DNA from: Amanita rubescens
Taxonomy: Eukaryota > Basidiomycota > Agaricomycetes > Agaricales > Amanitaceae
Reading direction: 5' to 3'
NCBI GenBank assembly: GCA_015039365.1
Contig: WION01000143.1
Coordinates: 62,001-126,000 of the forward strand
DNA length: 64,000 nt
Below, piece after piece: positions 7,440-50,845 of the stretch. Each line of letters begins with the position of its first letter. Position 1 is the stretch's first letter. A program made the position numbers and the translations under genes. The notes beneath the pieces are model-generated. The model saw only the letters and a list, made by a program, of their open reading frames with translations, was not told the origin of the DNA and made no database searches.

Positions 7440-9297
7440 CTAACGACCGGGCTCTCCCGGTCCTCGTCCCAAGATAGCTTTTACACTACCACCGACAGTG
7501 TCGCTCCATCCTACCGGGAGAGCTCCAGATTGGGCTTGGGCACTTCCTTGCGTATCCATGACGACACTTCCGTTTATAGCCCTGACGGACCTGGAATACG
7601 ACGAACCTCCTGATGTCTCGTCAAATTGATCAGAGGTATCACCGTAGGAGTAGGAAGAGCCGCCGGTAACGGAGAAGTAGTGTCCCGTTCCCCACTGTTT
7701 CGTGTTCAGCTCCATAGGGCCAGAAACGAGAGTGAAAGTCGATATGCCAAGTCCTCCCGTAGACGTAATCTCAAGACCGCGAGATACAGAAGCGTCAATC
7801 TGCAAACTCTTATTCGTACTGGAAAATGTCGAATTGACTTCGACCGGGTAATTGAAATCGGTATTGATCTGCGCCTTGCCGGTAGGCGCTGCGACTAGTT
7901 GACCTTGAGTGTTCTGCTTGTTCCACTGGTTGAAGCCTTCTTGAGTAAGAAGACCATCGTTGGTATAGGAAAGGGCTTGGCTCCACGAGAAGCCAGGAGA
8001 GGTTATGGAAAGCGTTCGCTTGGCCGTGACGGAGTACGCGAGAGAAATATTGGCACCTGTCTTCGGATCTTGGGCAAGTTTCCTGGTCGTACTGAACGTG
8101 GGTTCTGGCGCAATGATCTGAGGGAGGCTACCCTTGGAAGAACCGCCGTCGGCGCCTCCATCCAGGTACAAGAATATGGTGCCAGTTACGAGCCAGTACG
8201 AGCCGATGTTATCGGAAAGGGTTGCAGTTCCGTCTGCTTGGACGTCGAGGCCGGCTATTTTGATTTCAAAAGAATGTGAATTGCCGTCTGTCAGCAGAGG
8301 GAGGAATGGAGTTATGTCGATTTCTGGCATTCGCAAGTCAAATGCGTCGATACCAACAATTGGCCGCCAGAGTCCCGGGACAACTCCGCCCGTAAAAATG
8401 ATTGGGAACGGCCATACTACTCCGGCAAGGGTTCCATCAATGTAAAGCTGGACTTCACGGAAAGGAGATGATCCGTATAATGGACCCAAGGTGCTGTTGA
8501 ACGCATATATGTCCTGGGAAAAAACGTTTGAAAACCAAAATTCTTCTTGGATCTGTCCGCATGCGGAAATAGATACCACGGCACGTGAAGTCGTTGCCGG
8601 GACATTAACGGTCACAGCAGCATTGTCGGACGGCACGGTGAATACACTAGACAAATTACTAGCTGACCGCTTCGCCGAAATTGGCAGGATTACGTCCGGT
8701 GTCTTCACGTTGTTTTGCTTGGAAAAAGAGACAGTGAGTGTGGTATTGTAAGGACCGGTGTATATATTGTTGATCAAGTTGCCGAGATCGAATATCAATT
8801 TTTGAGGCTGCTTCCACAAGGCATTGTACTGCGACGTGTCTTTGATATAGGTCCAGACAATCCCATTAGCAGTTGGTTCCGCTGTCGACGTTCTGAAAAT
8901 CTCTATGTCGCCCAAGAACATGAGTGCGATCCTGTCAAACTGGCGTCCCTGGGAAGACACAGAGAAATTGATTCTGACGGTGTCGAAGTCGCACTGTGGT
9001 GGCTCGTAACCCCCTGCAAATGCCATTATGAGGTGCTCCACCAAAGAATTAAACTTGAACCGTACCGACGAATGGTTTCCCATAGCTGAACGCAAATTGG
9101 TGTTCCATAAGCGGAAGTTCTTGATTACAACCGGATCCCTGGGGCGCGAATTCTACCGGCTGATAGGTCTGAAAAACATTCAAAATAGCCGTGGAATCGC
9201 CTTGATGCTTGCGACTGAGAACGCTCTCATACGAAAAGACGAGAGAGAAATGACTGGAGAACAGGAAAGCGAGACAGAAAGCGAACTTGAGAAGCAT
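7440..9297 (-). CDS. secreted peptide-N-glycosidase A-like amidase (PNGase A family)
   Basis: Two exons (9297-9066 and 9013-7440) join across a 52-nt intron, restoring a continuous frame through ...SYGKPFVGGYEPPQC... . The ATG at 9297 is chosen because it starts a clear signal peptide (MLLKFAFCLAFLFSS). The mature protein opens with the family hallmark: an aromatic/Pro segment, then CDFDTVRINF, GRQFDRIALMFLGD and an RTSTAEP motif. PNGase A enzymes remove N-linked glycans from glycopeptides in the secretory pathway or outside the cell (family knowledge). The length, about 600 aa, is normal. No truncation is visible. Function is inferred from similarity. Confidence 0.85.
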
Positions 9298-16093: not shown

Positions 16094-19000
16094 ATGAAAA
16101 ATGAGCAATATGGAAAGGGAAATGTTATTGGCTCAATACTGGGAAAGTTGGCCAAGACATTCAACAAGCAGGATTTGGCAAGGACCGAGTCAACACTAGG
16201 CAAGACAACTCACACACAAACTCATGTTCCTAGCAGAACATCAGTCATGGCAGCTACAACTGGTGCACCCTCTTTGAGTAGGCTAATTCATGTTTCTCAG
16301 CATTGCTCTGACCATGACACATATCAGATGAAACACATGATGTTCAAATGCCTTTGCAGTAACCCCTTGTTAAACAACCTCATCATGATTCTAGCACAAT
16401 GGCTACTACAATTGGTGCACCTTCTCTGAGTAGGCTAATTTATGTGTTTCAGACTCTCAGTGTTGCTAATCCTTGACTGACACATATCAGATGAAACACA
16501 TGTTCAAATACCCTTTCAGAAACCCCTTGTCAAACAACCTCATTGTGATTCTAGCACAACAACAATCATGGCAGTAGCTGGTGGACCTTCTTTGAGTAGG
16601 CTAATTTATGTGTTTCATTGCTAATCCTTGACTGCCAACACATATCAGATCCAGATGAGACACATGTTCAAATGCTCAGGGAACGCTATTTATGTCCATA
16701 CTTTCGCATCCTTGTCATTGGGAGGGCTAATGCAGGCAAGACAACCATCCTTGAGAACTTTTGTGGTGTAGCAAAAGGGACAAAGCCCATCATATATGAC
16801 AAGGATCGTAAGTCAGTCTGAGTCTTGTGCTTTCTAAGTTGACTGTTGAGTTTCTTGCAGGTAATCAGCTTGAACAGTCTGTGAATCATTTGATTCCATC
16901 AGTTGATGTGAGTCAGATCATGATGATGTATAGATGTACCTTCACATACAATGATAACAGAGAGGCCTGCATGATATTGAGCATGAAATCACATACCCTG
17001 GAAGTAACTTTATCTTCCATGACTCTAAGGGTTTTGAATCTGGTTCAACTGAGGAATTGGAGATTGCATGGAAGTTCATTAAAAAGAAGTCTACAGAAAA
17101 TGAGCTGAAGAATCAGCTACATGCAATTTGGTATCTTGCCTTATTCCTTTACAGTACTGGCTGACCTGACTTCCTGCAGGTACTGTATACCCATGGACAG
17201 CCCTCATCCTATTTTACATGCAGAACTTGAATTCTTCAATAAAGGGACAGGCAGAGGTAAGTCTTAATGAATTCATATATCATCTTGTTGCCCTGGAGAG
17301 ATTACTGTTAACTACATATATGTACATACCTTCTTTCCATTGGCTCAATTGACACAAAATCTACTAGTGCTGACTAGTCAATATTTCCTTTACAGTTCCT
17401 TTGGTGGTTGTATTCACTAAATTTGATGGTGAAATAACCAGTGAATTTGTCAAGTTGAATAAGGCAATGGATAAAAATAAGCGGTGGAATAGAGCCAGGG
17501 AAATTGCTGAAATCACTTTTCAGAATATTTATCTTCCCAAAGTTTTGGATGCCAAATATCCTCCCAAGGCATGTGTGCGATTGGAAGGTGATGATGAGGA
17601 TCTCTTCCTAAAAAAATGGGAGTAACTTTGTTTCATAGACATTGATTTACCAAAGAATAATTGTGCTCAATTAACTCAGAAAACTGCAGATGTAATAGAT
17701 GATGGCATACATCAGCTGTTTGTTTCAACACAGATGAATGATCTAGACCTTTCTGTTAAATCTGCACTTCAGTGAGGATCACATTCAAAACATTACTTAC
17801 TGACATTGACATTGTTCAGACATGTTCTGAAACATAAACATTGGACATGGGAGAATGTTATTCTCATAGTTTTTTCAAAATTTTCACATTTCTGGGTATG
17901 ATTTTTTGTCAAACTACACATTAACAATTAAATAGCAATAGGTGGACAGAGAGGTAGGTGTCTTTCAAATGGAATGCTAAATAATTTCAAAAAGTTAATC
18001 AGGAGGTAAGTAACACTTCAATGCCTTCACATGAAAACTAGATTAGTATTGCTTCAGATGGTCAATAAACAACTGGATGAAGCACATGTTAGTACATAAA
18101 TATTCTTGCTGGCAGCATCTGATGTGTTTTATATCAGTGGGTAAGTGACATTGGACTAGCATAGATCTACAGTACATATTGTCTCATGACAACAGTTTGT
18201 AAGTAATGCTTCTTTTTGTGATCAGCTGTCTTGCCTCATAATTTATAGGAAGTAAGTGACATGATAATTTTGATTTTTCATAAATGATCCCATGGTGCAT
18301 CATATGACCAATAGAAAGTGAGTTAATCTAACATTGTGAGCAGACCTGTCAATCCAGTGTCTCATCAACAGGGAGTGAGTAATAAAATGCTGCCTCACAC
18401 CACATCTGACCTGCTTAAAGAAAGTAAGCAACATTAATGTTGTCACAGTGCAGTTTATCAGACATATATTAATGAACAACAGAAAGTTAGTGACATCCTG
18501 CCATTATCTGAGAGAGTGTGCCTCAACAATTTCCATTGAATTAACAACAGGAAGTAAATGCCACTTCCTTTCTGTCTGCTTATAAGCATTACATCTTATC
18601 CCAAAACAACAGACAGTAAATATTTCTCTTTTTCAGAGCCTCTTCACAGGCAATTAAATAACAAACAGGATGTATGTGATACTTTTGTGAGATGCATATT
18701 CATCATATGAAATACTATGGAAAAAGATTGTCAGTGGCATTGTTTTCTTTCTTCTGACCCCATTACATATGTTCATTTCATTCTAAAAGGAAGTGAGTGA
18801 TGCTGGCCACTCAGCTGCAAGACATTACGAAGACATTATTTTGCTCAACAGATGGTGAGTGATACTACAAGTCTTGTGAAAAGCAGTAAATATTTTCCTA
18901 TAAACATAGAAGGTTAGCAGCATGTGATGCTAGTTTCATGGTTCAAAAGATGACCTTATCCTATGGCCAACAGTATGTGAGTAACATTGCAAATATGTCT

Positions 19001-21278
19001 GGAAAGCTTTTTTATGTATTTTCTATGACTGACAGGATGTGAGCAACATTGAAGACTTTTGTGTAATGCAGTCTCATCACATCTTTTCCTATGACCAACA
19101 GCAAGTGAGTGCATTTTGTGAAAGAACATCTCATCACATCTTTTTCTATGACCAACAGGAAGTGAGTGACATTGCACATTTTTTCACATCTTCTCCTATG
19201 ACCAACAGGAAGTGAGTGACATTACACAAGTTGTGAAAGGCAGTCTCACCACATCCTTTCCCATGACCACTAGGGAGTGAGTAAACATTGCACATTTTGT
19301 GAAAGGCAGTCACCTTATCATATGACCAACAGGTTGTGAGTGACATCACATATCTTGTGAAAGGCAGTCTTATCACATATTTTTCCTGTGATCAACAGTT
19401 TGTGAGCAACATTGCACATTTTGTGACACGCAGTCTCTCATCACATGTTCCTATTACCAACAGCTTGTGAGTAACATTGCAGAATTTGTGAAAGTCAGTC
19501 TCATCACATCTTTGCCTATCACCAAAAGCTTGTGAGTGACATTGCACATGTTGTGAAGGGCAGCCTCACCTTTCCTATCACCAACAGCGAGTGAGTGACA
19601 TTGCACATTTCATGAAGCAATTTCATCACACCCTTTCATACATATGACCAACAGTCAGTGAGTGATGCACACTTTGTAAAAGGCACTCTCATCACATCTT
19701 TTCCTATCACCAACAGGGTGTGAGTGACATTGCACCTTTTGTGAAAGGCAGAGCAGGCTCATCACATCTTTTTTTATATGACCAACAGCAAGTGAGTGAC
19801 ATTGCACATTTTTGAAATGTGGTCTCATCACATCTTTTCCTATGTACAACAGGGAGTGAGTGACATTGCACACTTTGTGGAATGCAGTCTCATCACTCAT
19901 TTTCTTATGACCAACAGCTTGTGAGTGGTATTGCACATTTTGTGAAAGGTAGTCTCATCATATGACCAACAGCTTGTGAGTGATATTGCCCATTTTGTGA
20001 AAGGCAAGCCCATTACATCTTTTTTCATGATCAACAGCAAGTGAGTGACATTGCACATTTTGGGAACTTGGGCAGTCTCATGAGTCATGACTCTCATCAC
20101 ATCTTTTTCTATGACCAACAGAGAGTGAGTGACATTGCACATTTTGTGAAAGCAGTCTCATCACATCATTTCTTATGACCACCAGCTTGTGAGTGATGTT
20201 GCACATTTTGTGAAAGGCAATCTTATTGTATCTTTTTCCCATAACCAACAGGTTGTGAGTGATGTTGCACATTCTTGAAAGGCAGTCTCATTACATCTTT
20301 ACTACTACTATCATGACCAACAGCAAGTGAGAAACTTTGCACCACATCATTTTGTGAAAGGAAGTCTCATCACATCTCTATGACCAACAGGGAGTAAGTG
20401 ACATTGCACATTGTGTGAAAGGCAGTTTCATCGCATCTTTCCTATGACCAACAGCGAGTGAGTGACATCACAATTTTTCTTACCTGTAGTCTCACCATAC
20501 ATCAATTCATGAATTGTATTTAATATATTATATATTATGTACATATGTACATATATCAGAAAGTGAGCATGTTGCCATACCTTTTCCCTAGATCTTCCTT
20601 TTACCTTACTGTCATCATAGATTGTAAGATTTCATTTCAACTTGCCCACTCCCACCTCATGTGATCATTCAATTCTGTCACTTATATGACTTTCCTTGAT
20701 TTCCAGGTGAGTGATGCTGGTTCATGATGTATTGATTTTCCTATCAGTTTGTATGCTAGTGTGTAGGTCTGATGATACACTGGCTTTGGATGTTTTATTC
20801 TTTCTCATAACCAGCATGAACTTTTCTCCATGTTTGGAGATATGTGGCAAGAAAACTTTGCAGTCAAGGTTTTTTTGTTTTTTGTTTTGAGAGGGGGTAG
20901 TGCACAACTCATGCCATTCAAACAAGCTTACTCATTGCCAAGTCTTAGTTTGTGAATTATTCCTTTCATTTACTGTGTTTATGCTTAAACTTTCGAGCAA
21001 TTATTATTATTGCCAAGTTATCCTTTTGGATCAAGAAACCATTTGTGCCATCAGTCACTGATGCCTTTGATCAATACAAGCAAAGAGGCTATGCTCAGAA
21101 GTTGAAGACCAACATTACTCCCAGCTTTATCCGCTCTTGTCATCGACTTGATTTTGTCACATTACTCCATATGCAGGTGACCCACACTGTTGATGGTATG
21201 AACTTTGTCTAGTCATGCATTACTATGAATAATTTATTGCAGGGTGTTGAAATGCATGACATGGTATCCAGTAGGTGA
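16094..21278 (+). CDS. P-loop GTPase (fungal G-domain family) with a single-codon exon array
   Basis: A 58-exon model gives 541 aa with every splice phase consistent. G1 is GRANAGKTT (exon 16649-16807), the switch region starts RGLHDIE, G3 is DSKG in FHDSKGFESG, then WYCIPMDSP, and G4 is TKFD (exon 17396-17587). The apparent stop TAA at 17623 lies in intron 17588-17638; splicing there gives VRLEDIDLPKNNCAQL, typical of this Agaricomycete AIG1/MMR_HSR1-like family. After exons 17639-17771 and 17820-17895 come VDRE (17942-17953), E (18003), MVNKQLDEAH (18058-18087), then 41 one-codon exons, then HELFSMFGDMWQENFAVK (20815-20868), exon 21018-21176 and exon 21243-21278. The protein presumably binds GTP; its role is unknown. 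The locus is AT-richer than its neighbours. The start is uncertain because the 5' end is a triplicated exon unit. The donor at 20869 (GTTTTT) is weak. Confidence 0.75.
16247..16690 (+). repeat. three tandem copies of an exon-intron-exon unit at the 5' end of the GTPase gene
   Basis: Copies begin near 16247, 16400 and 16568. Each has an ATG-containing stretch reading MA(A/T/V)..GAPSL or similar, a donor GTAGGC, an intron ending ACATATCAG, and an exon reading (P)DETHVQ or ETH(D)VQ. The first two copies are followed by a 36-base segment ending in TCTAG. In the first copy it starts GTAACC and can be an intron. In the second it starts GAAACC, so the donor is lost, and the segment reads through in frame. 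Only the third copy leads into the P-loop exon. Translation may truly start in any of the copies. Confidence 0.7.
17942..20814 (+). repeat. tandem array of about 42 introns separated by single-codon exons
   Basis: Each unit is an intron, mostly 46-81 nt, ending in AG (typically CAACAG or similar), then exactly three bases, then a donor (GTGAGT, GTAAGT or close variant). First bases of the triplets: 18003, 18138, 18196, 18249, 18315, 18372, 18421, 18483, 18551, 18613, 18669, 18727, 18790, 18852, 18910, 18974, 19036, 19102, 19159, 19209, 19274, 19333, 19399, 19464, 19529, 19588, 19655, 19717, 19789, 19853, 19918, 19973, 20038, 20122, 20186, 20252, 20324, 20391, 20455, 20560, 20621, 20748. None is a stop codon. 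Units from about 19080 to 20460 share a roughly 62-nt intron consensus starting GTGAGTGACATTGCACA and ending CTATGACCAACAG. Units left of 19000 are more diverged. The alternative is a satellite inside one big intron (18088-20814). Confidence 0.85.
20624..20747 (+). other. zero-length exon / recursive splice site candidate
   Basis: Between the single-codon exons at 20621 and 20748, a pyrimidine-rich acceptor (TTGATTTCCAG, AG at 20705-20706) is followed immediately by a perfect donor GTGAGT at 20707. The unit pattern is kept but the three-base exon is absent. It could be a deleted microexon, a recursive (ratchet) splice point, or part of one 124-nt intron. Confidence 0.6.
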
Positions 21279-21899
21279 TGTATCTGCATTGCCTTTGCAT
21301 TAAGCTCATACTTATTTGTACATAGATTAAATAATGTACATCTTGTACTTATATATGTATAACAAAGAATCATTCCCTCCTGAGTCCTCAAAGCAGTGAA
21401 AATACTGATTGAAAGCTTTTATGTATCGCATGTCAATTAAGGAAATGGTGTAGTACCATAAAGGAAACCATGTACAGCATATACCATATGCTTCGTGCAT
21501 ATACCAAAGCCTGAACAGAATACCTACGATAACATGATGCTGCACTTCAAAAAGGTGCTGGGGCAGTGACTTGTGAGTAACAAATGTTGAGCGTGTGTAT
21601 GTAAAGTTGTAAACTCACAGGTGAATAGAATTACTGACAAGGATGAAAATCGATGAAGAGCAGCCGGCTGATACCTGCGCCCCAAATGTAATTTGGACTC
21701 AAGTCTTTCGCCACTGTAATTCTGCCACACAGCCCCTCTTTGCGCGTTGTGGCCTCAGTTTTCTTCTGTCCCTTGGAAATGTAAATGATTATGACAAATT
21801 CCATTATTCGTTATTGCTACATTACGAGAAAGAAAAAATGATATGCCGATGTGTTGTTAATGTACAATGCTAGTAAATGTCTGTGGAGAGTGAATGGCA
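21279..21899. other. AT-rich intergenic region
   Basis: This stretch follows the predicted stop of the GTPase gene and precedes the 3' end of the minus-strand protease gene. It should hold both 3' untranslated regions. I see no supported gene. Confidence 0.4.
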
Positions 21900-26567: not shown

Positions 26568-28066
26568 ATGCTCGTGAAGAATGCCCTGGCCAACTCTCTC
26601 TCTACAGTCACAATCATCCGCATGGCTACCGTCGTTGGCGTCGTTGCGTCCCTTTGTGGAGGCGCAAAGTTCTGGTCGAATGGTTCTCGGCAAAGAAGAC
26701 GTAAAGAAGTCGAAATGAAGGAGTTGCAGGAAAGGAAGGATGCGGACATTGCCAATCTCCAGCGAACTTTGGATGACACGCGTGCCCAACTGCAGGCGCG
26801 AGACGATGCGATTGCCGTTCTCAAAACTCAGACAGATAGTCTGAAAGGAACATCGTTTGACGTTCAGGAGCAATTGCAGGCAACTGTGAGTCAACTGCAG
26901 GTGCGAGAAGCTGCGGTGGGCGCTTTAAAAACGCAAACGGATCGTCTGAAATTGGACGTGGACGAGACGCAACGGCTGTTGCTGGAGGCGCGTAATGAGA
27001 CGACGGTCGCGAAAAGAGAGCTGGTAATGTTGGAGGAAAGGTTATGGCAGAGTCGGAGAGAGCTGGACGCCGTGAGGGTGAAATACGAGCAAGCGCAGGA
27101 GTTGCTCCAGACCCGGACTGCGGAACTCAAGGCCGCTCAGGCGTTCTTGACGACCGCGGATAAACTGTCCAATGTCGATGTCGTAAACCTGGTCGACGCG
27201 CTTAATGCGGAGATACTCCAGGTTTCCGCTTTGGTCGCGGATGCATTTACGTTCGGGCCGAAGAATGGGGGAGAAGGGGATATTAATTCAGAAGATGTCG
27301 AAGAAGCCCTTGCTCGTGCTACCGAGACCGTCGGACCACGCATGGTCCAGCTGCTCACGGCTTCTGAACACAACGAGGATCCGATATTGGTCCAAATAGC
27401 CTTTCAGGGTGGCCTCTGCGCATACGTCCAATGGATCATATCATCCTGGTACTTTGAGAGCCCCGATAACGAGCAACTATTGAGGGACGTGTACACTCAT
27501 ATCAGAGATTCGGGTAAGCCTTCATATCCTCGCGATCCTACCGATCTGACGATCAAATCCATCTAGAGGACCAAGCGATATACGGACGATGGAGGGCAAT
27601 GACGAGAAAACACGTCCAGCAGATGATAGGCGAAGGGCCAGATTTGACGATGTATTTCCTGGATGCATTTGTCACGATCCTGGTTGCGGCTGGCCTGAAA
27701 AAGGAGCACTCCCATGTCGCTGATATAATACAGTCCAGGTTCTCCGGCGATGTTGAAAAGATCGTCAGAAAATCACAGGAACTGAAAAAGGTACTGGGGG
27801 AAGACGTAACGTCATGTGAGCTTGAAATGCTCTACATTGAGCCGGATCAAGTTTACGACGAGGCCACAATGGAAGACACTTTCCAGGACCAGTCAGTAAA
27901 AGAAAACGGAGTAGCGACTGAAGGCGTGCTTTGTACGACGGATTTAGGTCTTATCCGACATGAAAAGGTTAAAGAAAACGATTGGAAATCCTCGGTCCTC
28001 CTAAGGCCGAAAATCGTCCTGCAATCTAAACTGAATGCCATTGTCGCGAGCGATGAAGACAGTTGA
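26568..28066 (+). CDS. membrane-anchored coiled-coil protein (CC-B)
   Basis: Exons 26568-27513 and 27567-28066 join in phase 1 across a 53-nt intron; the protein is 481 aa. An N-terminal hydrophobic stretch (MATVVGVVASLCGGAKFW) is followed by a long heptad-rich coiled coil to about residue 200. Next comes a globular C-terminal domain with WIISSWYFE, and the splice junction reads GEDQAIYGRWRAM. A conserved late strand reads VLCTTDLGLI. The same order and junction recur in the other CC genes of this window, which defines the family. It sits head-to-head with Hsp70-like A. I know of no assigned function; the co-duplicated partnership with Hsp70-like genes suggests a cofactor or adaptor (inference). 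Confidence 0.8.
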
Positions 28067-28488: not shown

Positions 28489-29779
28489 ATGATTGTTCTC
28501 CCCGTGTTGTTGCTTTTTGTCGCAGTGCTCATCCTTTACTACGTTCTCAGGCAACAGCAGCATATACGGAGTCTACAGAGTCAATGTGACAGCTTCTCAA
28601 ACGCAAATAGGGAACAGGAAAGCAAAATCGATGAACTACAGGGAGACGTTTCATCGGTAAAAGGCAGAGCGAACGATGCAGCCCGGGCCTTCAAAACGAA
28701 AGAGAATAATTGGAATACGAAGGCCACTGAAGGGCAACGCCGTATTACGAAGCTGCAGAACGACCTTGATCGGCTTCAAGAGAAATACAGCAGAGAGCTG
28801 AGAGCGGCACAAGACGAGCTTCAGGCTCTCCGTGAGCAGAGGGACGAGCTCAAGAAGCTCGTTGAGACCCAAGCCGTCGAGCTGACCGCCGCACGCGAGT
28901 TCACTTTCATGACCGACCAGGTCTCAGCAGCCGACGTTAGTCGGACAGTACAAGACCTCAATTCCGCCATATACCAAACTGCTATGCAGTTAATCTCCAT
29001 CGAACAACCCACCCCTGCCACTACAACCCCCTCTGCATCACCCGCCGCGGATATGGAACGCCTGCAGGTTCAGGCACGAAACAATACCGTCAATGTCATT
29101 GGCGAAAGATTGCTCCACCTCGCACAAACCGTTGGAAAAGAGGACGAGTCGTTCCCAATCCTCGCTTTCCAGAGCGCCATAGCCCACGTGTGCTTCTCCG
29201 TCATCTCTTCATGGGTTTTTGGGCGTGGCCACGAACCTCAGAACGAAATTCTCAACGTCACATACGAACAGATCTGGGCCAGCGGTAAGTGCCTAAATCA
29301 ACGTCGACCCGCATTGCTGACGACGCGTTATAGAGAGGCAAGCCGTTGCAGGTCGCTGGAGAGCTCTGACGCATACACAACTATCCAATATGAATGGCGA
29401 TAAAGTTCAACGCGAAATCCATGGCCTCCTGTTTTGCCTCCTGCTCTCTATCGGTTGGAGTGCCGAGCCGCGGCATATTCAGGCGTTGCTTATGGAAGAG
29501 TTGAAAGAGTGCATTGACGAGATCGCCGAGTTCGTGGCCAAGACGTCCAAGATGATCCGCGAGGAGTTCGTCTCGGACGACTTGCAGGTCACGTATGTGC
29601 GGGCTGGGCAGTACTTCAACCCATCCTTGATGGATGCAGAAGAAGGGCAAGCTTCGCCTGAGGTCCAGGCACCTGTCCTCGGTACGGTAGAGCTTGGTCT
29701 CGCGTTGCGAAATCGCGCTGGAGGACAGCAGATGTTGTTGAAACCGAGGGTAGCCCTTGATACTCCCACACCTGCTTGA
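28489..29779 (+). CDS. membrane-anchored coiled-coil protein (CC-C)
   Basis: Exons 28489-29284 and 29334-29779 join in phase 1, giving 413 aa. The start ATG opens a strong transmembrane anchor (VLPVLLLFVAVLILYYVL). A coiled coil follows, with DELQALREQRDELKKLVE near 28810, then a globular half with SVISSWVFGRGHEPQNE. The splice junction reads GERQAVAGRWRAL, then REIHGLLFCLLLSIGW and the strand VLGTVELGLALR. It is paralogous to CC-B and is the closest intact relative of the CC halves found in the fusion copies at 31.8 and 41.0 kb. It follows CC-B in tandem on the same strand. Confidence 0.8.
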
Positions 29780-30163: not shown

Positions 30164-33029
30164 ATGTCCCGCGCGTCTTTACCGCAAACAAAGCCTGATG
30201 ACGGATCTCAAAGGAAACTCGTTATTGCGTTTGACATTGGCATCACCTTCAGTGCCGTCTCCTACGTGTTTTTGATACCTCACGAAACGCCGGTAATTCA
30301 TAGCGTTACCCAGTGAGTTGCCCTTCTAGTGGTAACCGGCGGATACCTCATCTTAGGATTCCTTTCCAGGTTCCCTGGGCAACTCCGAGTCGGCGGTGAT
30401 TCCAAGATTCCAAGTGTCGTTTGTTACGACACGTATGGTAATGTCGTTGCTGTTGGTTCGGAAACAGACGTAGATACCAATCCTGAGCTCCTGGAAGTTG
30501 AAGGTCTTGTTCGAGCGGAATGGTGTGCTCCAACTCTTTATCAGCTGCCTCTCTCCTAACAAGGTGATATAAGGTTCAAGCTACATCTTCGACCAGCTCG
30601 TCTTGTTGCAGAGCAAGGGTTCGATGATAAAGACTTACCTGCACTTCCTCGGAATAAGTCAGTTATCGACATCTTCAGCGACCTGTTGAGATACATGTAT
30701 AAATCCACGAAGGAGTATATCCGACAGAGATCAGATGACATGTTGAGATCCGTTGGGAATAACATTGAGTTTATCTTCAGTCACCCCAACGGCTGGGAAG
30801 GCCGACAGCAATCCGAAATACGCCATGCGGCAATCAATGCAGATTTGGTCAACGCAAATGAAGCCCCGGAACGAATCAGCTTCGTCACCGAAGGCGAGGC
30901 CAATCTTCACTTTTGCCTAAACAAAATTCCTGATACTTTCAAGAAATACGTAGGTCGATTCTACTACAGTATCCGACTTGCTGAGTTGTGGTAGGCCAAT
31001 GACGGAATACTAGTCGCTAACTGTGGAGAAGGAACTGTGGACATCAGTTCATATGCGCGATCGAAGTCAATGACGTCGGGGAGCAATTTCGAAGAAATCG
31101 CTCCGGCTGAGTGTACGGGTGCTTCACCTTCCCTGACGCAACACTTACATCTCTTAGGCGTTTTGCAGGGCTCGTTGTTTGTCACCCGTAGAGCGCAAAC
31201 TTTTCTTACAGGTCAGCATAACCAAGTTTGTGACGTATGTGATCTAATCATGCTTTCTAGAGAAGCTTCATCTATCGAGGTTTGGAACGGAGAGCGACAT
31301 ACAAGTTATGACCAGATATTTCGACAAAACGACGAAACCCTGCTTTAGGGAACCTTCAAAACCGCACTTTATACGTTTTGGTCGAAATGAACATGATCCA
31401 GAACACGATATTCGGTCTGGCTGTATCAAACTCAATGGGTAAACGTTTATCATACGCTCAATGTACTATAATAAAATTTCATTGCATATAGCATCGACAT
31501 TGCGAAGTTTTTTGAACCTACCATAAAGGACATTATAAAAGCTATCGAAAAACAGACTAGGAAGACGACTACAAGGATTAGAGTACGTCTCTGAGAAAGT
31601 TGGATGTGTCATAACTAACAACTTGACGTAAAGGCTATCTGTATGGTCGGAACATTTGCTACCTCCGATTATCTGTTCTCCAAATTGAAGGATCATTTCA
31701 AGTTGAGGGGTATCGACATCTTGAGACCGGACGCTTCTCTGTGAGCAAAGAAACTGCTGCGCTTCGCATCCATTAACTTAAGGCTCTTGTATCAGAAACA
31801 ACGCTGTTGCAGAGGGTGCTATAATATTCAAAATGGAACCTTTTGTGTCCCCAGGCTGTGAAGCGCATCACCGTCTTACGAAACTGCAGAACGGCTTTGA
31901 CCGGCTTCAAGAGAAATCCAGCAGAGAATTGAGGGCGGCACAAGACGAGTTTGAGGCCCTCCGTGAGCAGACCGACGAGCTCAAGGAGCTCCTCGACACG
32001 CAAGCCGTCGAGCTGACCGCCGCAAGCGAGTTTACTTTCATGACCGACCAGGCACAAGCAGAGCTTCAGGCTCTCAGTGAGCAGACCGACGAGCTCAAGA
32101 GGCTCGTCGACACGCAAGCCGTCGGGCTGACCGCCGCACATGAGTTCACCCCCATGACCGACCAGGTCTCAGCGGCCAACGTTAGTCGGACGGTAAAAGA
32201 CCTCAATTCTACCATATACCAAACTTCTATCCAGTTAATCTCCATCGAACAACCCGCTCCTGCTACGGCCCCCTCTGCATCCGCCGCGGATACGGAACGC
32301 TTGCACGTCCAGGCACGAATCTATTCCGTTGGTGTTATTGGCGAGCGGTTGCTTCATCTCGCGCAAACCGTCGGACAAGAGGACGAGTCATTCCTTATCC
32401 TCGCTTTCCAGAGTGGCATAGCCCACGTGTGCTCTTCCGCTATCTCTTCATGGGTTTATGGGCGTGGCCACGAAACTCAGAACGAAATTCTCAACCTCGC
32501 ATACGAACAGATCTGGGCCAACGGTACGTCGCCCTTTTCACAATTGGCGTCAACCGCATTGCTGACGGCGCGTTGTAGAGAAGCAACCCGTTGCAGGCCA
32601 CTTGGAGAGCGCTGACCCATAAACAGCTATCCAATATGTAGCGGCGATAAAGTTCAACGTGAAAGTGCATAGCCCTCCTGTTCTACCTCCTGATCAGTAT
32701 CGGTTGGAAAGCCGAGCCAGCGGCAGATTCGCGGTTTGCTCGAGGAAGAGTTGAGAGAGTGCATCGACGAGATCGCCGCGTTAGTAGCCAAGGCTTCCAG
32801 GATGATCCGCGAGGAGTTCGTCTCGGATGACTTGCAGGTCATTTATGTGCGGGCTGGGCAGCACTTCAACCCATCCTTGATGGACGCAGAAGAAGGGCAA
32901 GCTTCGCCCGGAGTCCAGGCACCTGTCCTCGGCACGGTAGAGCTTGGTCTTGCGTTGCGAAATCGCACTGGAGGACAACAGATGTTGTTGAAACCGAGGG
33001 TAGCCCTTGATACTCACGCACCTGCTTGA
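30164..33029 (+). CDS. Hsp70-like / CC fusion gene (copy D), with a damaged last exon
   Basis: ATG at 30164 starts an Hsp70-like ATPase with the same exon structure as copy I. After intron 31741-31795 the frame continues NNAVAEGAIIFKMEPFVS and then, at about 31850, switches without a break into CC sequence (RLTKLQNGFDRLQEKSSREL). The Hsp70 part beyond this point is missing. The CC half carries a duplicated coiled-coil block (ALREQTDELKELLDT and ALSEQTDELKRLVDT). Nucleotide motifs are eroded: phosphate-1 reads FDIGITFSAVS, phosphate-2 VANCGEGTVD, adenosine motif MVGTFATSD. In the final exon an extra T near 32611 shifts the frame to an early stop (...ESADP, stop about 32620), and an in-frame TAG follows ATATG at 32639. 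The fused protein would therefore end there; the C-terminal CC segment at 32736-33029 is orphaned. Confidence 0.75.
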
Positions 33030-49735: not shown

Positions 49736-50845
49736 TCAATCGTCGAAGCTTACGACAACGTTGGCTCGACATAGCACATTGTGCTTCTCTTCGTCGACCC
49801 ATCCACCTCCTTGACGTCGCCGCCGGATATACAACTTCTGAGTGATTCCTATTGCCGTCGTACACATGATGGGCCCAGCCGCCGGCTTTTGCGTCCTGCC
49901 TATCTGACCATCCGCTTGCATCTTCTCCGGATCAAATTCACTTCCTGGTGAAGGAGCAAATGCCGAAACGTAATCTCCATCCATCATTTTCCACAGATCC
50001 ATCGTCTCCTTGACAAGATTTGAAAAGTCCTCCTCGAAGATGGACTGAAGTTGTTTTTCCGGAAAACCATACAAGCGTGACAGAAGGTGTATCAGCCGGC
50101 GTATTAGCACGCTGAAAAGAGTTTGCCTCAGGGCTTGACTAGCTTGTTTGTCCGAGTATACCAGCTCTCTCCACCGAGCTGGCTCTGTAATGTAGAGGAT
50201 CAGATAGGTAATAGGAAGGGGGAAAATTGCTTATTTACGGATCTCCATTATAGCATCAAGGATTTGTTGGAGCTTCTGCGTTTTCTCTGGATTAAGGAGG
50301 GAATAGAATTCGGAGGATAGAACTAGAACACAAAAGTGGTTCATACAAGCTTGAAGCGAAACCAAGATTCTTGGATGTGTTGAGTTTTGCTTAGCATCCA
50401 CTACGAAGTTGCACAAGGATTCGCCAAAGAGTGATTTCGCATTGTTGCACGGTTGATTCTCGGAAAGCTGGATGACATTATCCACATGTGCATCTGCAAC
50501 TGCAGAAGCCAACTGGTAGATGCAGTCGTTCAGAGATTTCACTTTGTTTATAATGTTCGTCTCCGAGACGATGTCAGCTTTGTTACCAAAGACTCCATCC
50601 AATTCGAACCCTTGCTTTGTCAAGCTCAAATCTTTCTTGGTACGTTCGAGCTCGAGTTGTAACTGATCGGCGCGCTGCTGTAGCTGGAGGGCCTTGAAAG
50701 CTCTTAGCGATTCTGTCAAAGAATGTGGCCACAGTATCATACCTGCTTGGTACGTTCGAGCTCGAGTTGTAACTGATCGGCGCGCTGGTGTAATTGGAGG
50801 ACCTGGAAAGCTATTAGTGATTCCGTCAAACAACATGATGGGCAT
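49736..50845 (-). CDS. coiled-coil protein (CC-H), 5' end uncertain
   Basis: The last exon (49736-50110) carries LSRLYGFPEKQLQSIFEEDF and MCTTAIGITQKLYIRRR but lacks part of the MMYGDYVSGDVEVFAP block. Its upstream edge differs from CC-F: the segment with the WRAL motif is shortened. The exon at 50231-50845 reads LQLQQRADQLQLELERTKKD, LNDCIYQLASAV and MNHFCVLVLSSEFY. The coiled-coil exon is duplicated as in CC-G, and the 5' flank (50900-51170) parallels CC-G. Deletions and the missing first exon leave it unclear whether it is expressed. It is head-to-head with Hsp70-like copy I. Confidence 0.6.
50640..50830 (-). repeat. tandem duplication of the coiled-coil exon in CC-H
   Basis: Two copies, about 50640-50735 and 50752-50830, share GAGTTGTAACTGATCGGCGC and the following GTTCTCAGAAAG-like context seen in CC-G. 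The arrangement is the same as in CC-G, pointing to a common duplicated ancestor. Confidence 0.75.

Follow-up and report, generated by a model that had tools for sequence, protein, structure and literature searches.

The repeats of TAL effectors and PRDM9 and the fungal WD40/NLR repeats are near-identical units with a few hypervariable codons that can be shuffled by recombination, and the micro-exon genes of schistosomes combine many small exons of one phase with rapid protein evolution. Here we analysed a stretch of 64,000 nucleotides (nt) from Amanita rubescens (contig WION01000143.1, positions 62,001 to 126,000 of the forward strand; hereafter the window), which holds a GTPase gene with a long series of triplets, each set between a splice acceptor and a splice donor. 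The gene is very probably a member of a large A. rubescens GTPase family with a hypervariable loop encoded one codon per exon. Compared with the repeats named above, the conserved part of the A. rubescens repeat would be an intron and would be removed, and only the variable residues would reach the protein.

Exons of this size have been described in other organisms. Exons of 3 nt occur in animals, in Ncam and Drosophila TnT (PMC8042270), and exons of 1 nt in plants, in APC11 and VPS55 (PMC8831610); according to the passages cited, they are spliced though too short for exon definition. These microexons are single or few in the cases presented there, whereas dozens follow one another in A. rubescens, mostly variable and between near-identical introns. 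The genomic pattern of the A. rubescens arrays fits that of microexons (spliced exons of at most 30 nt), and splicing is visible through transcript-like contigs of relatives only. The fungal gene lipS of Dactylellina haptotyla has 3-nt exons (PMC5639578); the cited passage deals with two of them in a duplicated gene and mentions neither an array nor variability. The aphid bicycle genes, whose internal exons are almost all of phase 2 and which include megacycle with more than 100 microexons, share with our arrays the many small single-phase exons and the rapid protein evolution, as far as the cited part of that paper describes them (PMC9168663). They differ in phase, since the A. rubescens exons are in phase 0 (41 of 41 window triplets), and the latter are one codon long, lie between repeat introns and belong to a GTPase. 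Introners and introner-like elements are near-identical introns present in many copies in fungal genomes (PMC4457414, PMC9860276). Near-identical introns in many loci were also found here (a 62-nt consensus in 10 of 12 loci and 1031 exact frames), but they stand in tandem at successive codon boundaries inside one gene family, which sets them apart from the introners of the cited passages. Introners are also characterised by insertion into many unrelated genes and, in some families, by target-site duplications of 3-9 bp. A literature search of open-licence papers found no report of arrays of one-codon exons, which does not prove their absence. We therefore rate the architecture as a new kind.

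In the window, the sequence AG, three bases and GT recurs across positions 18003-20623, mostly at steps of 50-85 bases with a few wider ones. Thirty of the 34 strong donors of the array lie 3 nt after a [CT]AG acceptor, whereas 500 Markov shuffles averaged 0.12 such cases and never exceeded 2, which rules out a chance origin of the pattern; on the + strand of the remaining 57 kb of the window, no acceptor-donor length was preferred. The recurrent pattern reported in the first-pass annotation is therefore real, and 41 of its approximately 42 triplets could be placed: one upstream of a 30-nt exon, 15 in a conserved head, 23 in a variable array and two at the trailing end (Table 1). The triplet at 20748 (TTT, donor GTATGC) was left uncounted, being weak and without a counterpart in the paralogue L023, in which the intron after the ATT exon extends to the CATGATTTT exon. 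All 41 placed triplets are in phase 0, none is a stop codon, and they share a single frame with the exons 18058-18087 and 20815-20868, as had been proposed. The joined model of 410 codons spans the GTPase and C-terminal regions, from PDETHVQ to LHMQ, with no frame error; it begins at 16651, and its first exons and stop codon are not fixed. The first-pass annotation gives totals of 58 exons and 541 codons for the whole gene.

The same constraint was found throughout the genome. The motif ACCAACAG-N3-GTGAGTGACATTG with exact flanks is present in 1031 copies, compared with 13 copies with N2 and 6 with N4, and all 13 N2 units and four of the six N4 units lie in two places, C13 and C749. Among the 1031 triplets there was no TAA, no TAG and a single TGA, while NGA occurred 308 times; the TGA is located in C537 (locus L033), where the Y exon also has a GC donor. 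Across 35 distinct loci, 1260 of the 1316 donors with a nearby acceptor were placed 3 nt after that acceptor according to our own regular expressions and score cut-offs, on which the chain lengths and chain ends given below also rest; 29 further cases of zero length correspond by position mostly to the end of the 30-nt exon. Stops amounted to two of these 1260 triplets (L033 and L053), and to two of 710 triplets in unique contexts, for which 55.5 were expected from base composition. In 21 loci chosen as a non-redundant set, none of 591 triplets was a stop (26-29 expected); this set omits L053 (one TGA, near copy of L052) and L033 (one TGA, broken chain), both of which are included in the 35-locus tally. 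Furthermore, the far relative L055 (C107) has diverged introns, and still 22 of its 25 strong donors lie 3 nt after [CT]AG (0.07 on average in shuffles). L055 is an old array that has retained the design despite the divergence of its introns, which is not expected of a non-coding repeat.

These data bear on the possibility that the array is a non-coding minisatellite of about 65 base pairs (bp) with splice-site-like ends inside one long intron, the triplet being its variable position. A tandem repeat finder does report periods of 50-65 bp, and the introns of the units are common across loci. Against this stand the near absence of stops, the fixed length of 3 with rare exceptions, the conservation of the head triplets between loci, the persistence of the pattern in the diverged L055 array and a head peptide encoded in transcript-like contigs, and we regard a minisatellite as extremely improbable. 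Reading of the repeats in unspliced form is ruled out, since the unit length of 65 bp is not divisible by 3 and a frame cannot persist through it.

With respect to composition, most variable triplets have A or T as their last base (CGA, CAA, GAA, GGA, CTT, TTT, GAT), and NAG triplets, which would place a potential second acceptor next to the first, were found in 2 of 591 cases (one CAG, one GAG). A few 6-nt gaps occur in L012, L019, L020, L022, L046, L050 and L051, for example CAAGCA (L020) and TTCTAT (L050/L051); they are consistent with two-codon exons, and some may be misread acceptors.

The phenomenon is larger than first reported and not confined to one odd gene, as the array start is present at at least 50 distinct places in the A. 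rubescens genome. A 741-base array start from C769 matched 40 places (the best 40 of 127 candidates being scored), and the window's own start matched 40 (the best 40 of 104), nine of them additional, including the window itself; C56 is a further place. Haplotypes or duplicates probably account for some of these places. In 34 of the 35 loci read, the array is preceded on its own strand by a GTPase exon, the exception being L055, a short piece that starts too late or is without the GTPase exon. The first 15 triplets (WFEQGKKETDREIKY) are conserved between loci, the later triplets are highly variable and the introns vary little. In the head, TGG, TTT, GAA, GGA and a later GAA are identical in all 31 aligned sequences, as are most of the other triplets to a large extent, and the surrounding AG and GT are nearly invariant. 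Peptides resembling MANEQLSEAQ and WFEQGKKETDREIKY are encoded at 34 distinct places (47 rows of the locus listing, L019 being a cut piece of a place also listed as L042), with three GC donors and a few alignment gaps. One chain of L018 has 83 triplets, and 9 of 15 longer arrays, the window and L054 included, end in K followed by I or N. Twelve exact units are spread over 8.5 kb on one strand of C3 (127055-135582) and belong to a single, very long array or else to two adjacent genes. Among the listed homologues, many deposited A. rubescens models stop short of the array.

The gene in the window has a copy, L054 on C777, that is 97.8% identical and is probably the other haplotype. Over all 41 exons the two differ at 3 of 123 triplet sites (two of the differences synonymous) without any triplet indel, and outside the triplets at 28 of 2468 sites with gaps excluded (58 of 2498 when deleted bases are counted). 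The alignment ends near window position 21433, and the next block begins about 340 bases further on in the window and about 970 in L054; by this alignment, the flank beyond 21433 would differ by an indel of several hundred bases.

We then compared the predicted peptides with relatives that are encoded on short contigs. P0002 (386 amino acids, on a 1446-bp JGI contig) reads FPHLWVDRAVTNEQLSETK-WFEKGKKESDREIEYDG-GPPQRGQGGHVARLQPGHIRNGLNPLLRLGGGLHGGLLFR... and P0009 (311 amino acids, on a 1903-bp JGI contig) reads FPHFWVGRDEMANKQLSEAQ-WFEHGKKDTDKQIVYDG-ERLLQRNYEHQYQNLLLLPLQK..., both uninterrupted. Since these contigs are too short to contain the array introns, they are most simply cDNA. The predicted one-codon part of the window matches P0002 at 12 of 16 residues and P0009 at 10 of 16, and that of L021 matches them at 14 and 11 of 16, respectively. 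The family consensus agrees with P0002 at 13 of 16 residues, compared with at most 8 when the P0002 tail was shuffled 20,000 times. The E encoded by the triplet at 18003 has a counterpart in P0009 and is apparently absent from P0002. In addition, P0002 contains 17 conserved residues and 40 further residues in a single frame. The head conservation, the scarce stops, the strict 3-nt length and these transcript-sized contigs all support the original interpretation of the triplets as dozens of one-codon exons.

The variable segment was also searched for in other forms. Over most of the first 250 residues P0022 agrees with P0027, but the variable segments of the two are dissimilar. A 174-residue query from P0022, ending in the part that corresponds to the C-terminal helical exon (21018-21176), gave at least 150 genomic places (the best 150 of 217 candidates were scored), and the listed matches all begin at residue 87 or later; none of them was a contiguous A. 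rubescens exon covering the FPHYW-WF-variable part, in a search in which short exons might miss the E-value limit. A region query for array-bearing proteins gave 62 candidates, none at E ≤ 10. A 147-residue tail query found 44 proteins, including the transcript-like relative P0122, many of which terminate at or just after FPHFW.

The gene product belongs to the P-loop GTPases. The window model has 1156 homologues at E ≤ 0.001, the best of them from Amanita, and contains the G1, G3 and G4 motifs (GRANAGKTT, DSKG and TKFD), whose columns are near-invariant among 55 relatives. Its match to MMR_HSR1 was below the Pfam cut-off. No Pfam family of the immunity-related GTPases (IRG) was matched, and other families appeared below threshold only (searched to E ≤ 1 with the window model and E ≤ 0.1 with four relatives). 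A structure was predicted for P0027 as a stand-in for the window protein. From this model we conclude that the variable array would encode a disordered loop between the GTPase region and a C-terminal helical region. The predicted fold loosely resembles the IRG proteins, which may serve as a lead only, and the Foldseek list also includes dynamin-like, septin and other GTPases. The closest known systems also include the immunity-related p47 GTPases (Irga6, IRGB10) and GM4951.

Sequence variation within the arrays is concentrated in the triplets. Among 97 unique units (of 427 with 65-bp spacing on both sides), nucleotide diversity was 0.61-0.71 across the triplet and did not exceed 0.17 at any of the 62 flanking positions, the change at AG and GT being abrupt, although the uniqueness filter favours variable positions. 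Without this filter, the mean difference per site in 11 loci was 0.35-0.71 for triplets and 0.03-0.40 for flanks. The local consensus was matched exactly by 183 of the 238 62-nt introns in seven homogeneous arrays. Units with identical flanks often differ at two or three bases of the triplet, except in L023, where single differences prevail.

Near-identical and older copies were compared in 10 chosen pairs. L009 and L017 differ at 4 of 117 triplet sites and 4 of 3159 other sites, and one unit has ATC in one and CGA in the other with unchanged neighbouring flanks. The corresponding values were 9/117 and 6/3158 for L009 and L014, and 5/117 and 8/3158 for L017 and L014. Since the differences between L009 and L014 lie mostly at triplets, the comparison suggests that codons may be swapped by recombination between identical introns. 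A generally faster mutation of the triplets is ruled out by the window and L054, whose differences, given above, amount to no strong excess at triplets, and by the other pairs without an excess. The simplest reading is that units are duplicated and converted between identical introns, with selection keeping the codons diverse. Introns with common derived variants shared neighbouring codons 34 times compared with 18.5 expected (seven loci), mainly owing to L018 and L013, while two loci gave no pairs and L023 pointed in the opposite direction. Neighbouring triplets were equal 81 times compared with 54.7 expected (11 loci); a 3-bp target-site duplication would give equality, which is far from always seen.

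Another origin for such an array would be intron homing at the RNA level, in which a master intron is reverse-spliced into codon junctions of the mRNA and fixed by reverse transcription and recombination, leaving identical introns between old and diverse codons. This would agree with a consensus intron that is identical (62 of 62 positions) in 10 of the 12 loci compared while the codons differ, and with the sharp ends of the homogenised block at AG and GT. However, the two excesses among neighbours, in codon sharing (34 versus 18.5) and in equal triplets (81 versus 54.7), are those predicted by duplication of units at the DNA level, and we consider intron homing improbable.

On the reading that we prefer, the unit AG-codon-GTGAGT would combine a phase-0 exon of 3 nt with an intron of roughly 62 nt. 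Removal of the introns by the spliceosome would proceed by intron definition, most likely successively; the ordered, intron-defined removal put forward in the first-pass annotation is a reasonable inference. Splicing would yield about 18 conserved and about 20 to 70 variable codons in one reading frame. Because the units carry 3 nt in phase 0, their gain, loss, swap or skipping would alter the loop by whole residues without a frameshift. The near-identical introns would serve as homology arms, through which unequal exchange and gene conversion shift codons between units, and selection would maintain codon diversity. A broader idea, which is possible but which we put forward tentatively, is that a genome-wide pool of interchangeable units, each a codon with an identical intron, is reshuffled both inside single GTPase genes and among dozens of them. 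The shared sequence would be spliced off and hypervariable loops composed residue by residue, free of frameshift risk, for the recognition of nonself or pathogens, and skipping may add variants per gene.

Dozens of consecutive 3-nt exons would test the limits of the spliceosome in the extreme. An acceptor and a donor 3 nt apart can hardly both be bound together, and the order of removal is therefore directly testable. The arrays further suggest that in a mushroom a large GTPase family may evolve its proteins codon by codon, the introns providing the arms for recombination. As standard annotation misses the arrays, with many deposited models ending before them, similar arrays may hide in other genomes.

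Several observations weigh against this account. P0002 and P0009 come from other fungi, and their best matches to the A. rubescens genome are 77-89% per segment; the genes that they come from might lack the division into single codons. Their termini do not match the expected HELFSMFG exon, and the unmatched end of P0009 may be a retained intron. P0065, also transcript-like, is without the array start and has a last exon seemingly in a shifted frame, and unit skipping may thus also occur. Units of 2 or 4 nt exist in four arrays (C13, C749, C254, C599) and a stop in two loci, and some members (e.g. C13, C749, C537) are broken or mis-assembled. L010 and L018 differ at 0 of 213 triplet sites and 1 of 5120 others, plus one whole-unit indel, and L010 and L015 at 0/141 and 8/3591, with no triplet excess; nor is there an excess in older pairs (1/66 versus 88/1970; 2/66 versus 43/1994). 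The recombination mechanism is based mainly on one near-identical set (L009, L014, L017), and some of the differences between near-identical arrays could be errors of assembly.

Some of these points would fit codons that are real exons in an array mostly skipped or partly spliced, as a device for regulated splicing or length variation whose main product contains few of them. P0065 without the head and the unmatched P0009 end are compatible with it, and the frame survives the skipping of any number of units. On the other hand, P0002 joins 17 conserved and 40 further residues in one frame, and array-wide stop avoidance implies that the units are translated at least sometimes. A mostly skipped array therefore seems rather unlikely, though it deserves consideration. 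For the diversity of the codons, targeted hypermutation of triplets could take the place of recombination and selection. It would account for ATC versus CGA between unchanged flanks in L009 and L017 and for the 2- and 4-nt units in C13 and C749. However, all swapped-triplet states occur in the pooled counts (ATC 5, GCA 5, CTA 14, others 55-93 of 591), which include L009 itself and are not a donor search, and the older pairs and the L010 set have no triplet excess; hypermutation is accordingly a very doubtful source. In L023 (C13) and C749, several 2-nt and 4-nt units stand among regular ones; these may reflect gene decay or faulty assembly, or may hint at the way in which units mutate.

Table 1. 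Exons of the array-bearing GTPase gene in the window
Feature	Position	Strand	Remark
GTPase-encoding exons	16649-16807 (P-loop GRANAGKTT), 16861-16907, 16961-17130 (DSKG), 17180-17256	+	frame closes
GTPase-encoding exons, continued	17396-17587 (TKFD), 17639-17771, 17820-17895	+	frame closes
12-nt exon VDRE	17942-17953	+	cf. VDRA in P0002, VGRD in P0009
One-codon exon GAG (E), upstream of 30-nt exon	18003-18005	+	E, V or K in paralogues
30-nt exon MVNKQLDEAH	18058-18087	+	MANEQLSEAQ and variants in paralogues; VTNEQLSETK in P0002; MANKQLSEAQ in P0009
Conserved head, 15 one-codon exons reading WFEKGKKETDIEMKY	18138-18976	+	31 aligned sequences, 34 distinct places; WFEKGKKESDREIEY in P0002
Head exon starts 1-8	18138 W, 18196 F, 18249 E, 18315 K, 18372 G, 18421 K, 18483 K, 18551 E	+	
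Head exon starts 9-15	18613 T, 18669 D, 18727 I, 18790 E, 18852 M, 18910 K, 18974 Y	+	
Variable array, 23 one-codon exons reading DQEEGVFLLRSGQGLLQRLVQGR	19036-20457	+	introns 47-81 nt
Variable exon starts 1-8	19036 D, 19102 Q, 19159 E, 19209 E, 19274 G, 19333 V, 19399 F, 19464 L	+	
Variable exon starts 9-16	19529 L, 19588 R, 19655 S, 19717 G, 19789 Q, 19853 G, 19918 L, 19973 L	+	
Variable exon starts 17-23	20038 Q, 20122 R, 20186 L, 20252 V, 20324 Q, 20391 G, 20455 R	+	
Trailing one-codon exons AAA (K), ATT (I)	20560, 20621 (to 20623)	+	chain-end pattern of longer arrays
Exon HELFSMFGDMWQENFAVK	20815-20868	+	frame closes; cf. ELFSVFG / LLSLF after the variable segment in relatives
Exon of C-terminal helical region (LSFWIKKPF...)	21018-21176	+	in-frame model

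The 5' end of the gene (window 16150-16660) is itself tandemly repeated, with a period of 160 and 1.8 copies at 16315-16617. Its successive copies bear ATG starts that give peptides resembling MAATTGAPSLSRL, MATTIGAPSLSRL and MAVAGGPSLSRL, and these copies are perhaps alternative first exons.

Elsewhere in the window, the reading frames 26568-27566, 28489-29403, 31833-32615 and 50231-50845 appear related by eye, with coiled-coil-like N-termini and a common LNxxIxQ-like motif, and none of the four matched a Pfam family above the cut-off. A clear PNGase A (peptide N-glycanase) gene lies on the - strand at 7440-9095 (E 6.3e-137).

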